From: Verrucomicrobiota bacterium
Lineage (GTDB): Bacteria > Verrucomicrobiota > Verrucomicrobiia > Opitutales > Opitutaceae
Direction: 5' to 3'
Assembly (NCBI GenBank): GCA_026398135.1
Contig: JAPLTN010000091.1
Coordinates: forward strand, 1-39,561
DNA length: 39,561 nucleotides
The notes below the pieces were generated by a model, which worked only from the letters and a program-made list of their open reading frames with translations, did not search any database and was not told the origin of the DNA. Both the position numbers and the translations under genes were made by a program. This document shows positions 2,594 to 11,245 of this stretch, piece by piece (position 1 is the first letter of the stretch; each line of letters opens with the position of its first letter).

Positions 2594-4107
2594 ATGTTCG
2601 AACAAGCCTTTAAAAACATCGACGACGTCCTCTGGAAGGACGCCGGCTGCACCAGCGAACTCGATTACACCGAACAGACTTCCTGGCTCCTCTTCCTCAA
2701 ATACCTCGACGCCCTCGAGCACGACAAAGCCACCGAGGCCGCCCTCGACGGCAAGAAATACACCCACATCCTGACCTCCCCTACCGCTGGGAATCGTGGG
2801 CCGCGCCCCGTTCGACAAGCTCACGGCAGGCCAGTGACAACGTGAGCCTGTCGAACGAGCGGTCCCTGAGCCTGTCGAAGGGGATCGACCACAACACCGC
2901 CCTGTCCGGCGATGACCTCATCCAGTTCGTCAACGCCAAGCTCTTCCCCTACCTGCAAGGCTTCAAAGCCAAGGCCTCCGGCCCCAACACCATCGAATAC
3001 AAGATCGGCGAGATCTTCGATGAGATCAAAAACCGCATCCAGAGCGGCTACAACCTGCGCGAAATCATCGACCACATCGATGGGCTCCGCTTCGCCTCCC
3101 AGACCGAGAAGCACGAGCTGTCCCACCTCTACGAGGCCAAGATCAAAAACATGGGCAACGCCGGGCGCAACGGCGGCGAATACTACACCCCGCGCCCGCT
3201 CATCCGCGCCATCGTCGCCGTCACCGCGCCGAGCCTCGGCGAGACCATCTGCGACCCCGCCGTCGGCTCCGCCGGCTTCCTTTGCGAAGCCTTCGATTAC
3301 CTCCGCGCCGCCCATCCCCAGCGCACCACCGCCCAGGACCGCGCCCTGCAGGAGCGCACTTTTTACGGGAAGGAGAAGAAGTCCCTGGCCTACGTCATCG
3401 CGATCATGAACATGATCCTGCACGGCATCGAGGCGCCCAATATCATCCACACCAACACGCTCGCCGAAAACCTCGCCGACGTGCAGGAGAAGGACCGCTT
3501 CCACGTCATCCTCGCCAACCCGCCCTTCGGCGGCAAAGAGCGCAAGGAGGTGCAGCAAAACTTCCCCATCCGCACCGGCGAGACCGCCTTCCTCTTCCTC
3601 CAGCACTTTATCAAAATCCTCAAGGCCGGCGGCCGCGCGGGCGTCGTCATCAAAAACACCTTCCTCTCCAACACCGACAACGCCTCCGTCAGCCTCCGCA
3701 AAAAACTCCTCGAGGAGTGCAACCTTCACACCGTGCTCGACTGCCCCGGCGGCACCTTCATCGGCGCCGGCGTGAAGACCGTCGTGCTCTTTTTCGAGAA
3801 AGGCGCGCCCACCCGCAAAGTCTGGTTCTACCAACTCGACCCCGGCCGCAATATGGGGAAGACCAACCCGCTCAACGACGCCGACCTCGCCGAGTTCATC
3901 GCCCTGCAAAAGACCAAGCCCGACTCGCCCAAATCCTGGTCGGTGGACGTCGCCGCCATCGATCCGACGACCTGCGATCTCTCCGCCAAGAACCCCAACC
4001 GCGTCGAGGAGATCGCGCACCGCAGCCCGCAGGAGATCCTCGACGAGATCGCCAGCCTCGACCAAGAGGCCGCCGAAGTGCTCACTGGTATCCGCGCGCT
4101 GTTATGA
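2594..4107 (+). CDS. hsdM: HsdM, type I DNA adenine methyltransferase subunit, with one-base frameshift
   Basis: Modification subunit that methylates adenine with SAM and joins HsdS and HsdR. The N-terminal helical domain starts at 2594 (MFEQAFKNIDD). Motif I-like DPAVGSAGF is at 3253-3279 and catalytic NPPF at 3517-3528; the C-terminus ends in AEVLTGIRALL. The frame changes near 2778-2781: the codons before it are in one frame, and the family-conserved PYRWESWAAP is read one base over, as if one C of the run is missing. After this the frame is open to the stop at 4107, so a GTG at 2842 could only make a protein lacking the N-terminal domain. Between WESWAAP and DHNTAL lies an in-frame palindromic repeat (2810-2880) not expected in the family. 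It may be a pseudogene, or the frame break may be a sequencing error. Confidence 0.85.
2810..2884. repeat. CTGAGCCTGTCGAAGG-type palindromic repeat inside hsdM
   Basis: Arms at 2810-2825 and 2841-2856 are inverted copies with one mismatch, and a third copy in direct orientation follows at 2864-2880 (CTGAGCCTGTCGAAGG). In the methyltransferase frame this encodes about 25 extra residues rich in Ser and Leu between WESWAAP and DHNTAL, without a stop. The same word occurs twice more in this window, both times inside hsdR. Confidence 0.8.
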
Positions 4108-7764: not shown

Positions 7765-8196
7765 ATGAGCCAGGCCGACATCCGTTGGATTCAACGATTC
7801 CAAAACTACCGCAAGGCCCTCTCCCGCCTGTCGGAGGCGGTGGCGCTGGCGGGGGAGCGTCCGCTTTCCGACTTGGAGCAACAGGGTCTCATCCAAGGCT
7901 TCGAATACACCCACGAATTGGGTTGGAACGTCCTCAAGGATTATTTGGAGCACCAGGGTTTCGTAAACATCATCGGCTCCAAGGGCGCGTCGCGGGAGGC
8001 GTTCAAGAACGCGTTGATCACCGATGGCGAGGCGTGGATGGACATGATCAAGGCGCGCAACGCCACCTCGCACACCTACAAGCCGGAAGTCGCCGACGAG
8101 ATCACCCGGGATGTTCTCGGCCGTTTTTATCCCGCCTTGGTCTCCTTGGAACAGCGTATGGCGGAGTTGGCCAAACAGGAGACCGGCGGACTATGA
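7765..8196 (+). CDS. hepT: HepT-type HEPN toxin (HI0074 family)
   Basis: 143-residue all-helical protein of the nucleotidyltransferase substrate-binding (HI0074) family. The HEPN RNase motif is complete: R98-NATS-H103-T-Y105, i.e. RX4HXY. In studied HepT/MntA pairs this motif gives ribonuclease activity, and the Tyr is blocked by AMP added by MntA. Conserved helices FEYTHELGWNVLKDYL and AFKNALITDGEAWMDMIKARN are present. The gene overlaps mntA by an ATGA junction. It sits in the middle of the hsd operon upstream of hsdR, where it may act as an addiction or back-up defence module; that role is inference. Confidence 0.88.
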   Translation: MSQADIRWIQRFQNYRKALSRLSEAVALAGERPLSDLEQQGLIQGFEYTHELGWNVLKDYLEHQGFVNIIGSKGASREAFKNALITDGEAWMDMIKARNATSHTYKPEVADEITRDVLGRFYPALVSLEQRMAELAKQETGGL

Positions 8197-8510
8197 ATCA
8201 CGGCCTGTCTGCCACGACGGTCGAGAAAATCCACAAAGTGCTGTCGCTGCATCCGCAAGTCGAACGAGCCATCCTCTACGGCTCTCGGGCCAAGGGGAAC
8301 TTCAAGCCCGGCTCGGATATTGACCTGACGCTGGTCGGTGAAGGACTGGCCGAACGTATCCGCGGCCAGATAGACGAGGAGCTGGACGATCTGCTGCTGC
8401 CCTACGAGTTCGACCTGTCCGTGCTTGACGAGATTACGCACGCGGAGCTGCTCGATCACATCAAGCGGGTGGGCGTGGTCTTTTACGAAAAGCAACCGTT
8501 GCCCGCATGA
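8193..8510 (+). CDS. mntA: MntA-type minimal nucleotidyltransferase antitoxin
   Basis: 105 residues, a minimal nucleotidyltransferase (HI0073-like). It carries G30-S31-x10-D42-I43-D44, the GSx10DxD signature with both metal ligands. The downstream region PYEFDLSVLDEI holds the third acidic position. In the HepT/MntA toxin-antitoxin system this enzyme adds AMP units to the Tyr of the HEPN toxin and silences it. It overlaps hepT upstream and hsdR downstream, each by ATGA, so toxin, antitoxin and restriction subunit are co-translated. Confidence 0.88.
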   Translation: MNHGLSATTVEKIHKVLSLHPQVERAILYGSRAKGNFKPGSDIDLTLVGEGLAERIRGQIDEELDDLLLPYEFDLSVLDEITHAELLDHIKRVGVVFYEKQPLPA

Positions 8511-11245
8511 ACGAAGCCGAGACCCGTGCCGAGCACATCGACCCCGCCTTGAAGGCAGCGGGCTGGGGCGTCGTCGAGGGCAGCAAGATCCTGCGCGAGC
8601 ATCGCATCACCGCCGGTCGCATCGAGGGACACGGGCGGCGTGGCAAGGCCGACATCGCCGATTACGTACTCGTCTATCGCAACACCAAGCTCGCCGTCAT
8701 CGAGGCCAAGGCGTGGGACGAGGCGCTCACCGAGGGCGTCGGCCAGGCCAAGGACTACGCCGCCAAGCTGGCGATCCGCTTCGCCTACTCCACCAACGGA
8801 AAGGGAATCTACGCCATCGACCTGGAGACGGCCAAGGAGGGCGAAATCGCCGCCTACCCGACCCCCGACGAACTCTGGGCGCTCACCTTCGCCGAAGCGA
8901 ACGCGTGGCGCGACCGTTTCGCCGCCGTGCCGTTTGAGGACAAGGGCGGATCGCATCCCGGCCGCTATTATCAAGACATCGCCGTCGAGCGCGTCATGCA
9001 GGCCATTGCGGAGGATCGCCAGCGCATCCTGCTCACCCTCGCCACGGGCACGGGCAAGACCTTCATCGCCTTCCAGATCGCTTGGAAACTCTTTCACGCC
9101 CGCTGGAACCTGAGCCGCGAAGCCACCCGCCGCCCGCGCATCCTTTTCCTCGCTGACCGGAACATTCTGGCAAACCAAGCCTACAACGCGTTCTCCGCCT
9201 TCCCCGAGGACGCGCTGGTGCGTATCGAGCCCGCCGACATCAAGAAGAAGGGCAAGGTCCCCAAGAACGGCAGCCTGTTCTTCACCATCTTCCAGACCTT
9301 CATGGCTTCGGCAGGCTCAGCCACCGGGGCCTCGGTCCCTGAGCCTGCCGAACAGGTAGTCACCGAAGACTTAAAACAACCGGTCAGTGAGCGTGACGAA
9401 CTGGTCGAACTGCCAGTGCCCACTGAAAAAGCGGATGGCTGCATGTATATTCTCGAATGTGGAGACGGCAGTTTCTACACAGGAAGCACGACCGATTTGC
9501 GCATACGGTTGGATCAACACCGAATGGGTGAAGGCGCAAAACACACCGCAGCACGGCTCCCCGTCAAACTCGTCTACTATGCGCCGTTTGACCGGATCGA
9601 TAAGGCCTTTGATCGCGAGAAACAGGTGCAGGGTTGGAGCCGCGCCAAAAAAATCGCCCTGATCCAAGGTAACGTCAGTAAATTGAAGCAGCTGTCATCG
9701 AGCTATTCAATTCCTGCGCCTGTCAGAAGGATGGTTCCTGAGCCTGTCGAAGGATACTTTGGCGAGTATCCGGCGGACTTTTTCGACTTTATCGTCATCG
9801 ACGAGTGCCATCGCGGCGGCGCCAACGACGCGAGCACCTGGCGGGAGATTTTGGAGTATTTCTCCCCAGCGGTTCAGCTCGGCCTCACCGCCACGCCCAA
9901 GCGCAAGGACAACGTCGATACCTACGCCTACTTTGGCGAGCCGGTGTATATCTACTCGCTTAAGCAGGGCATCAACGACGGCTTCCTGACTCCGTTCAAG
10001 GTGAAGCAGATTCAGACCACCCTGGACTACTACATCTACACCCCCGACGACGCCGTGGTGGAGGGTGAGATCGAGCAGGGGAAACTTTACGAGGAGGCGG
10101 ATTTTAACCGCAGAATCGAGATCCGTGAGCGGGAGAAGAAGCGGGTGCAGCTCTTTCTCGCCCAGATCAACCAGAACGAGAAGACCCTGGTCTTCTGCGC
10201 CAACCAGTCGCACGCCCTGCTCGTGCGCGATCTCGTAAACCAGCTCAAGACGAGCAAAGATCCGAACTACTGCGCGCGGGTTACGGCCGACGACGGCGAG
10301 CGCGGCGAGCAGGCCTTGCGGGATTTCCAAGACAACGAGAAGACCATCCCCACGATTCTCACCACGTCGCAAAAACTCTCGACCGGCGTGGATGCGCGCA
10401 ACATCCGCAACATCGTCCTGATGCGGCCGGTCAACTCGATGATCGAGTTCAAGCAGATCATCGGCCGGGGCACGCGCCTCTACGACGGGAAGGACTATTT
10501 CACGATCTACGACTTCGTAAAGGCGCACCTAAACTTCCAAGACCCCGAGTGGGACGGCGAGCCCATCACTCCCATCAGTCCCATTTCTCCCACAGCTCCC
10601 ATCACCCCGCCGCCGGGGCCACCCACGCCCCCCGAACCGCCCATCGCCCCACCCCGCCAGAAAGTGAAAGTCCGTCTCGCCGACGGCAAAGAGCGCAGCA
10701 TCCAGCACATGATGACGACGACCTTCTGGCACCCCGATGGGACGCCGATGAGCGCGCAGCAATTCATGGAACTGCTCTTCGGCAAACTGCCCGACTTCTT
10801 CCAAAGCGAAGCCGAACTCCGCGCCCTCTGGAGCGCGCCCGACACCCGCGCCAAACTCCTTCAAGGCCTCGCCGAAAAGGATTTCGGCCACGATAAGCTG
10901 GTCGCGATGCAGCAACTGATCGACGCGGAAAAAAGCGACCTCTTCGACGTGCTCGCCTACGTCGCCTATTTGTTACCCCCGGTTACGAGGGCCGAACGGG
11001 CAGACCATGCGCGGGTGTATATCAACTCCCACTTCACCGCGAAACAGCAGGCGTTCCTCAATTTTGTGCTTCAGCACTACGTCACGGAGGGCGTCACGGA
11101 ACTGGATCAGAGCAAGTTGAAGCCGTTGTTGCGGCTCAAGTATCACGACTCCATCGCCGACGCCGTGGCGGACTTGGGCGGAAAACCGGAGGAAATCGGC
11201 CAAGTTTTCGCGGGTTTCCAGAAACACCTCTACGCCAAGACGTAA
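8507..11245 (+). CDS. hsdR: HsdR, type I restriction subunit (EcoEI-like) with embedded GIY-YIG domain
   Basis: 912 residues. The N-terminal PD-(D/E)xK nuclease shows D52 and E66-A-K68. The SF2 translocase has Walker A TGTGKT at 180-185, DECH at 432-435, a TATPKR motif III near 461, and QIIGRGTR at 650-657. A C-terminal EcoEI-type helical domain spans about 740-905. HsdR cuts unmethylated DNA after ATP-driven translocation in complex with HsdM and HsdS. Between motifs I and II, where the family reads IFQTFM then YFGEYPADFFD, this protein carries about 140 extra residues: a palindrome-coded stretch, a complete GIY-YIG nuclease domain (313-395) and a second repeat-coded stretch (402-417). A Pro-Thr-Ser-rich repeat linker lies at about 685-715. 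The frame stays open throughout. Whether the restriction activity survives is unknown. Confidence 0.92.
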   Translation: MNEAETRAEHIDPALKAAGWGVVEGSKILREHRITAGRIEGHGRRGKADIADYVLVYRNTKLAVIEAKAWDEALTEGVGQAKDYAAKLAIRFAYSTNGKGIYAIDLETAKEGEIAAYPTPDELWALTFAEANAWRDRFAAVPFEDKGGSHPGRYYQDIAVERVMQAIAEDRQRILLTLATGTGKTFIAFQIAWKLFHARWNLSREATRRPRILFLADRNILANQAYNAFSAFPEDALVRIEPADIKKKGKVPKNGSLFFTIFQTFMASAGSATGASVPEPAEQVVTEDLKQPVSERDELVELPVPTEKADGCMYILECGDGSFYTGSTTDLRIRLDQHRMGEGAKHTAARLPVKLVYYAPFDRIDKAFDREKQVQGWSRAKKIALIQGNVSKLKQLSSSYSIPAPVRRMVPEPVEGYFGEYPADFFDFIVIDECHRGGANDASTWREILEYFSPAVQLGLTATPKRKDNVDTYAYFGEPVYIYSLKQGINDGFLTPFKVKQIQTTLDYYIYTPDDAVVEGEIEQGKLYEEADFNRRIEIREREKKRVQLFLAQINQNEKTLVFCANQSHALLVRDLVNQLKTSKDPNYCARVTADDGERGEQALRDFQDNEKTIPTILTTSQKLSTGVDARNIRNIVLMRPVNSMIEFKQIIGRGTRLYDGKDYFTIYDFVKAHLNFQDPEWDGEPITPISPISPTAPITPPPGPPTPPEPPIAPPRQKVKVRLADGKERSIQHMMTTTFWHPDGTPMSAQQFMELLFGKLPDFFQSEAELRALWSAPDTRAKLLQGLAEKDFGHDKLVAMQQLIDAEKSDLFDVLAYVAYLLPPVTRAERADHARVYINSHFTAKQQAFLNFVLQHYVTEGVTELDQSKLKPLLRLKYHDSIADAVADLGGKPEEIGQVFAGFQKHLYAKT
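9303..9757 (+). mobile_element. Putative GIY-YIG cassette bracketed by CTGAGCCTGTCGAAGG-type repeats, in frame inside hsdR
   Basis: The left end is a perfect 14-base inverted repeat, TTCGGCAGGCTCAG (9307-9320) with CTGAGCCTGCCGAA (9339-9352). The right end has two direct copies, a degenerate one at 9711-9730 and CCTGAGCCTGTCGAAGG at 9737-9753. Between them, 9443-9673 encodes an 80-residue GIY-YIG nuclease that begins with its own ATG: Y314-I-L, Y324-T-G, R332 or R334, H338 and metal-binding E371 (REKQVQGW). The core residues are intact. The cassette replaces nothing obvious in HsdR and preserves the frame. The mobile nature is inferred from the repeats and the abrupt break in HsdR homology. 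Confidence 0.65.
10559..10612 (+). repeat. TCCCAT-word tract in the hsdR linker
   Basis: A run of (A/T)CTCCCATCA-like words coding EPITPISPISPTAPITPP in frame, between the helicase core and the C-terminal domain of HsdR. It resembles the tracts around the four-helix-bundle gene (4132-4187 and 4773-4833). It could be a flexible linker made from the same repeat family. Confidence 0.55.

Follow-up and report, generated by a model that had tools for sequence, protein, structure and literature searches.

Introduction

The closest described counterpart of the element reported here is a GIY-YIG domain at about position 800 of MCA0838, an HsdR protein of Methylococcus capsulatus, which Dunin-Horkawicz et al. 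called a 'unique insertion' in 2006 (PMC1564403). According to the main text of that article, the domain belongs to the Slx1 cluster, a homologue with 80% identity lacks it, and the insertion was judged to be very recent; the same text contains no mention of palindromes, inverted repeats, direct repeats or in-frame insertion. In the present study, a GIY-YIG cassette bounded by palindromic repeats was analyzed within hsdR, the gene of a type I restriction subunit, of a Verrucomicrobiota bacterium (Opitutaceae; assembly GCA_026398135.1). The whole stretch of DNA analyzed, contig JAPLTN010000091.1 from position 1 to 39,561 of the forward strand, is hereafter called the window. As in the published account of MCA0838, the GIY-YIG domain lies within an HsdR that has domain-free homologues. 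However, MCA0838 is a single case, whereas the cassette occupies one site in ten distinct HsdRs, has palindromic ends and, as judged from phylogenetic trees, was transferred repeatedly.

The homing genes carried by group I introns and by inteins (for background, see PMC1564403) resemble the cassette in the patchy distribution of filled and empty alleles, the conserved site, the GIY-YIG nuclease and the spread of a nuclease clade independently of the host gene. Unlike them, the cassette has no intron or intein match, its nuclease stays in the protein, and its solved relatives belong to UPF0213. The usual view is that a homing element can enter protein genes safely only with the help of an intron or intein. 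Mitochondrial rps3 is a protein gene that carries homing endonuclease sequence without an intron of its own, which is a likeness to the cassette; the rps3 insertions known to us differ in belonging to the LAGLIDADG family, in their host and in having no palindrome-bounded insertion within a loop. The Rickettsia palindromic elements, which are palindromic DNA tolerated in frame within protein genes, are likewise similar, although to our knowledge they carry no nuclease gene and are described in Rickettsia. The REP/REPIN-RAYT elements share with the cassette their short palindromes, which also occur inside coding genes, as stated for the GTAG/CGTC REPs in PMC3733652. A Y1 transposase gene also stands by hsdR in three of the ten filled loci. 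In contrast to these elements, the cassette encloses a GIY-YIG domain, and its repeat has few copies in the host genome, where the high palindrome copy number of REP/REPIN-RAYT elements was not found; GIY-YIG is not mentioned in PMC3733652.

Searches of the open-licence literature turned up no title or abstract opening that describes a palindrome-bounded in-frame GIY-YIG cassette. Thus, within the literature searched, the recurrence, the site-specificity and the palindromes of the HsdR insert look new. A sequence-only reading of the window knew of no description of this arrangement; one GIY-YIG domain in an HsdR had been published in 2006 (PMC1564403, main text).

Results

The window HsdR belongs to the EcoAI/FtnUII family: it matched NCBIfam NF046051, an equivalog model, with 808 bits against a cut-off of 550, and the match was split into two stretches, the better of which covered residues 413-909. 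The sequence-only reading had described an in-frame insert of roughly 140 residues between FQTFM and YFGEYP, with a perfect 14-base inverted repeat and a complete GIY-YIG domain carrying its own ATG, and all of these were found as described; the insert measures about 450 nucleotides (nt), and the repeat recurs at its other end (Table 1). Of the two repeat copies expected there, one is clean and the other is degenerate. The Pfam GIY-YIG model (PF01541) matched HsdR residues 311-382 (E 6.5e-14), and the GIY and YIG motifs and the catalytic residues of the superfamily are present. The G+C content at third codon positions is 57% for the insert, compared with 87% and 82% for the hsdR flanks, a composition foreign to the host gene.

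The 46 nt spanning the inverted repeat fold, as single-stranded DNA, at -21.3 kcal/mol (z -6.5 against shuffles). With up to three mismatches, the 16-nt repeat word occurs 6 times in the window against 0.47 expected, and none of 100 shuffles attained 6; a chance origin was rejected on this count and on the clustering in the restriction-modification (R-M) locus. Within one mismatch, CTGAGCSTGTCGAA has six sites in the 3.39-Mb genome, five of which lie inside this R-M locus, so the repeat is no general feature of the genome.

The cassette, consisting of palindrome, linker, GIY-YIG, linker and palindrome, lies at a single codon site within the motor domain of ten distantly related HsdRs, always in one frame and one orientation. 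A pattern-based search with the GIY-YIG segment in a collection of 84,980 species genomes gave 49 loci (loci and genomes of the comparison carry L and G numbers), and in 10 of the 49 (L009-L017, L019) this insert was found in an HsdR, at the site seen in the window. Because L009 and L010 are identical over the insert, nine of these are distinct, and the window makes ten distinct rows. By record title, the carriers are Anaerolineae (Chloroflexota), Candidatus Anammoximicrobium (Planctomycetota), several groups of Bacteroidota and two records titled only 'bacterium' (L010 and L016), the latter of which came with a Bacteroidota sample. The ten filled HsdRs are ten different sequences, each an open frame of 896-981 amino acids (aa), and the loop measures 133-206 aa in the nine besides the window. 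The 5' repeat is always read in one frame (TCG-ACA-AGC-TCA or variants), as is the 3' repeat (GAG-CCT-GTC-GAA or variants). The cassette starts with GCTTCGGCAGGCTCAGCCACC in the window, L009 and L011, and its ends resemble terminal inverted repeats, such as CCTTCGACAAGCTCAGGCACC in L012 and GGTGCCTGAGCTTGTCGAAGG in L015. The linkers vary widely among cassettes; in-frame tandem expansions of an 8-residue unit, AHKASSGT (L012), and a 7-residue unit, PELVDSV (L016), were observed in them.

HsdR relatives without the insert, which the sequence-only reading had suggested looking for, exist and include two from the same genus (L089 and L090); they read FQTFMSG, a few residues and PYFGEYP. Filled and empty alleles thus occur at one site, as is characteristic of homing endonuclease genes. 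Among 63 empty HsdR loci, the loop was readable in 49 and unread in 14; 46 of the readable loops have 14-38 aa, and the three longer ones have 67, 74 and 76 aa. None of the 49 readable loops contains the palindrome motif. Since all ten cassettes share one codon site, this result suggests that the target is hsdR sequence and that the repeats are the cassette's own ends. The mobile, frame-keeping cassette of the sequence-only reading is supported; its homing into repeat sites is conjectural. Two copies of a different repeat, GNATLRSG, were seen without a GIY-YIG domain in the same HsdR loop of L100 and L102 (74 and 76 aa), which makes this loop a tolerant insertion site.

The HsdR tree was calculated from 60 rows (10 filled and 50 empty) and 792 columns, with the insert columns excluded. 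The filled rows need 9 changes on this tree, of which the strongly supported branches force at least 8 (by a quick method), and constraining them to one clade was worse by 1481 log-likelihood units (approximately unbiased test, p 2.5e-25). The window hsdR is sister to two empty genes of the same genus (support 99), and L012 is sister to the empty L159 (support 100; 89% identical). In the 46-row GIY-YIG tree, by contrast, the ten cassettes group as a single clade (99/94, based on all 200 bootstrap trees), and they do so again in a quick 78-row tree (SH-aLRT 90). The nuclease phylogeny thus conflicts with that of the host gene, another characteristic of homing endonuclease genes. Moreover, the cassettes of L012, L016, L014, L015 and L019 form a clade (96/96 in the 46-row tree). 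Identity between the cassettes of L012 or L016 on one side and those of L014, L015 or L019 on the other is 79-86%, compared with 59-65% for the C-terminal halves of the HsdRs. Between L016 and L014 or L015, the proportion of synonymous differences is 0.47 and 0.42 in the GIY-YIG domain and 0.79 and 0.89 in HsdR. Across all 45 pairs there is no significant correlation between the identity of the cassettes and that of the hosts (Spearman 0.18, p 0.23); in 33 of them the cassettes resemble each other more than the hosts do. In addition, the hsdR of L012 follows empty L159 on both sides of the insert, while its cassette goes with those of L014 and L016; transfer of a whole or half hsdR as the only explanation for L012 was rejected on these grounds. 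The scatter in the host tree, combined with the single cassette clade, implies that the cassette itself moved repeatedly into one codon site. Judged by these phylogenies, its passage from one HsdR lineage to another did not depend on the remainder of the gene.

The GIY-YIG catalytic motif residues are conserved in all ten cassettes, and the ratio of nonsynonymous to synonymous substitution (dN/dS) of the domain was 0.05-0.20 in the 15 of 45 pairs for which it was computable, the other 30 being saturated; the domain appears to be under purifying selection. The nuclease and ATPase motifs of HsdR are invariant across the aligned filled and empty rows. AlphaFold modelling (33 HsdRs) predicted a confident compact domain at about 310-398, with mean pLDDT of 77-95 in the 10-residue blocks of residues 301-400, between flanks (268-295 and 400-415) below pLDDT 50; the overall pTM of 0.53 makes the placement of the domain unreliable. 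A Foldseek search gave the HsdR 3h1t first and the UPF0213 protein 1zg2 at rank 42 (E 2.7e-4), and with a 15-row profile 1zg2 and 1ywl, both UPF0213, were the only solved chains at E<=0.01. The domain was accordingly placed in the UPF0213/Slx1-like subgroup, whose nearest solved relatives here are single-domain UPF0213 proteins. The view of the sequence-only reading that GIY-YIG domains are homing-type nucleases is too broad, as the solved relatives found are these two proteins and not I-TevI. The self-splicing intron or intein that usually, although not universally, carries a homing gene is missing: an intron was rejected for want of an Rfam match at E<=0.1, and an intein for want of a Hint or splicing domain among the Pfam matches.

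In the window's phylum, 113 of 387 genomes had GIY-YIG matches (E<=1e-3; window counted, not all stand-alone), as did 124 of 296 Bacteroidota genomes (E<=1e-15; two HsdR seeds counted) and 52 of 201 Chloroflexota genomes (E<=1e-12; the HsdR seed counted). Related genes adjoin the repeat family elsewhere and HsdR relatives without the insert exist, so that neither of the two outcomes named by the sequence-only reading as refuting it was found. In the first 68 loci, which include one HsdR-embedded domain (L087), the motif TGAGC-n-GTCGA was found at 11 loci no more than 400 bp from the domain and at 1 locus in the control zone of 900-1300 bp; this stricter motif was tuned on the same loci, on which a looser one gave 12 near and 5 far. 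An independent set had the motif near the domain at 11 of the 28 loci from Bacteroidota and at 3 of the 29 from Chloroflexota (14/57), and far from it at none of either (0/28 and 0/29; 0/57). The association is an enrichment, and most relatives' loci are without the motif. A related unit, GCCATTCGAC-n-GCTCATGGC, was found in 30 of the 387 genomes of the window's phylum (reversed control 0 in the rows listed), and 28 of these 30 have a GIY-YIG match, as against 113/387 overall (Fisher p 2e-14, which takes no account of genome relatedness or of the neighbouring of the two features). A second shared word, GCGCGTATCGAGGCG, was observed in Bacteroidota (L225-L252), its 11-mers lying near the GIY-YIG gene in 6-7 of 28 cases and far from it in 1-2, and is possibly another palindrome family tied to GIY-YIG genes of that phylum.

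Many of the relatives in the window's phylum follow tRNA genes. Among 29 loci besides the window's own (L059-L087, best match per genome), a tRNA gene lies within 700 bp upstream on the same strand in 18 and on the other strand in 3 more; elsewhere, this was seen in 1 of 38 loci not titled Verrucomicrobiota (L042), 1 of 29 Chloroflexota loci and none of 28 Bacteroidota loci. Twenty tRNA-linked loci were inspected, namely these 18 together with L023 and L042: in 12 of them the end of the tRNA gene passes directly into ATTCGAC, and in 3 more into variants, and many of the loci displayed continue with the inverted partner and then the nuclease gene. The order of inverted palindrome pair and GIY-YIG domain is thus common to the tRNA-linked loci and the window hsdR. 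The tRNAs concerned (L061-L085 and L023) are those for Ser, Gln, Asn, Met, Gly, Ala and Arg, often with palindromes in between. Only 3 of the 20 loci repeat the tRNA 3' end behind the GIY-YIG gene, and tRNA-end duplication was dropped as an argument for target-site duplication. In genome G192, the palindrome-flanked relative L059 sits directly after an hsdM. A viral reservoir was rejected, since two scans of viral contigs gave no confirmed relative and the phage and plasmid matches listed are below 50% identity. The cassette probably derives from stand-alone GIY-YIG genes linked to its repeat family; in the window's phylum such genes are often located at tRNA 3' ends.

A second HsdR family offers a comparable case. 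In genome G278 (C207; L087/L188), an EcoR124I-type HsdR carries an in-frame GIY-YIG domain between its nuclease and motor parts; the query has 807 residues, and its match to the eight listed plasmid relatives (out of 2161 records) extends over 1980-1986 nt, or about 660 codons. A 30-nt repeat stands before the domain and again 478 nt further on, in copies that are 97% identical. It differs in sequence from the window repeat, and its imperfect hairpin is barely better than shuffles (z -2.1 and -1.7). Repeats and a GIY-YIG domain are therefore joined in two HsdR families, the second repeat being weakly palindromic, and the L087 insertion is independent of the window cassette.

In the window, the repeat is also present in hsdM of the same operon, which the sequence-only reading had taken for a possible empty or partner site. 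The three copies are real, and same-family palindromes lie in frame at one hsdM loop (WAAP..DHN/DNN) in three genomes: the window's, L019 (1114-1127) and L189 (G192). They are missing in L191, the one same-genus HsdM read, and in L011. They are separate in-frame palindromes, and a role as an empty site is conjectural. The N-terminal part and the remainder of the window hsdM lie in two frames, offset just before the palindromes, while hsdR is intact; hsdM may be broken, or the frame change may be an assembly error. Upstream of hsdR, two small overlapping genes (7765-8510) were noted, which resemble a HEPN/MNT toxin-antitoxin pair; the slot before hsdR holds Phd/PIN-type pairs in three of the plasmid relatives opened.

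Table 1. Positions of the cassette, its repeats and associated genes (window coordinates unless a locus is named)
Feature	Position	Strand	Remarks
hsdR, type I restriction subunit (EcoAI/FtnUII family)	8507..11245	+	912 aa, one frame straight through the insert
In-frame cassette	9305..9753	+	replaces the short loop between FQTFM and YFGEYP of empty HsdRs
5' palindrome arm TTCGGCAGGCTCAG	9307..9320	-	
Inverted partner CTGAGCCTGCCGAA	9339..9352	+	18 nt beyond the first arm; perfect 14-nt inverted repeat
GIY-YIG catalytic domain, PF01541	9437..9652	+	Y314, Y324 and E371 present
Internal in-frame ATG (M313)	9443..9445	+	putative start only; aligned stand-alone relatives also have M there
Degenerate extra repeat copy ATTCCTGCGCCTGTCAGAAGG	9710..9730	+	
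3' repeat CTGAGCCTGTCGAAGG, cassette end	9738..9753	+	
Restart of host hsdR sequence, codon Y417	9755		after the cassette end
hsdM, same operon	2594..4107	+	palindromes in a loop; frame change near 2770
First repeat copy in hsdM	2809-2824	-	loop WAAP..IDHN
Second repeat copy in hsdM	2842-2857	+	loop WAAP..IDHN
Third repeat copy in hsdM	2866-2881	+	loop WAAP..IDHN
Y1 transposase gene, L012	449-919		
Y1 transposase gene, L014	4488-4955		after hsdS
Y1 transposase gene, L019	3734-4456		after hsdS

Discussion

With moderate confidence, we regard the cassette as a palindrome-bounded mobile element that resembles a homing endonuclease gene and does without an intron or intein. The GIY-YIG nuclease, made within the HsdR fusion, would cut hsdR alleles with an empty loop; repair off the filled copy would write the cassette into the cut allele, and the insertion would destroy the cut site. 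The cost to the host would be kept low by the tolerant loop and not by splicing, the cassette having a length that is a multiple of three and terminal palindromes without stop codons in the reading frame concerned (..PSTSSGT.. and ..VPEPVEG..). The product is probably a still-working HsdR with a tethered second nuclease, and the two-nuclease fusion proposed by the sequence-only reading is thus supported as a prediction from the sequence.

Several observations weigh against this reading. No filled and empty pair was found inside one species, the nearest pair being 89% identical, and no clear target-site duplication was seen at the hsdR junctions. Beyond the window and the search seeds, no further filled HsdR was found in the loci from 337 and 345 genomes (30 HsdR loci each, some loops unread), so that filled HsdRs are rare. 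A 24-row GIY-YIG tree gave 2 changes, with a single origin in 30% of bootstraps; this tree left out the closest stand-alone relatives, which the 46-row tree included. Co-conversion of the flanks was dropped as an argument, since a 40-residue block that is 88% identical between L012 and L014 overlaps the cassette's own start and the finer 75-nt windows beside the site disagree (82% for L012-L014 and 82% for L014-L173), leaving no clear co-conversion tract. The exact repeat, with 1-14 sites in ten other carrier genomes, is rare in most of them. Furthermore, the Y1 transposase genes just upstream of hsdR in three of the ten filled loci encode a possible mover.

The last point leads to the main rival explanation, which we consider less likely: a composite REP element (REP, GIY-YIG passenger, REP) would be moved in trans by a REP-associated Y1 (IS200-like) transposase to many different places, and only in-frame insertions into tolerant loops of R-M genes would survive. 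The Y1 copies of L012 and L014 are 92% identical, compared with 64% for their HsdRs, and Y1_Tnp matches were present in 11 of the 13 genomes searched, including the window's. The palindromes in the hsdM loop of three genomes, and the other repeat, GNATLRSG, in the HsdR loop of L100 and L102, would also fit such insertion. However, the ten cassettes belong to one GIY-YIG clade and share one codon and orientation, unlike the outcome of untargeted insertion of many stand-alone lineages, and the empty HsdR locus L173 also has a closely related Y1 transposase adjoining. No Y1_Tnp match was obtained for G387 and G388, both of them carriers, and the window contig has none of the matches found in its genome; this search missed the L019 gene, so that its negatives are not firm.

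It is unlikely that the GIY-YIG domain is instead a useful second nuclease of HsdR, which improves or alters restriction and was spread by selection and ordinary R-M recombination. The purifying selection suggested by dN/dS and the catalytic residues retained in all ten cassettes agree with this explanation, yet an active selfish nuclease would likewise be under purifying selection. The compact domain predicted between flexible linkers would suit a functional addition, as would the independent insertion in the EcoR124I-type HsdR and, as a third case, the published MCA0838 (PMC1564403, main text). In contrast, the linkers are highly variable with tandem expansions, filled HsdRs are rare among those sampled, and the authors of 2006 thought the MCA0838 insertion very recent and perhaps functionally unimportant (same source).

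An ancestral HsdR domain that was lost many times would account for the same site and frame in all ten genes, but this explanation is highly improbable: it was rejected on the conflict between the cassette and host trees, no palindrome remnant remains in the 49 readable empty loops, and the third-position composition of the insert is foreign to the host gene. An assembly or binning artefact is hardly credible, for although all ten filled search records are titled as metagenome-assembled genomes, one architecture recurs across ten different HsdRs, each an open frame, and the window genome is 99.86% complete in 117 contigs.

A broader proposal that includes the homing-like cassette is put forward tentatively, as a possibility. 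UPF0213/Slx1-kind GIY-YIG nucleases may be enzyme partners of REP-like palindromes (TTCGAC-n-GCTCA and TGAGC-n-GTCGAA) and may form with them a family of mobile elements that the papers searched do not describe. In the window's phylum they would insert at tRNA 3' ends, and one of their lineages may have become a splicing-free, in-frame hsdR homing cassette that crosses phyla. If this is true, REP-like palindromes would gain a second kind of enzyme partner. The cassette, which has neither intron nor intein, appears to survive because it keeps the frame within a tolerant loop, and its host is a defence gene that is itself exchanged between bacteria, which offers a route between phyla. Moreover, the cassette offers natural HsdRs with two nucleases.

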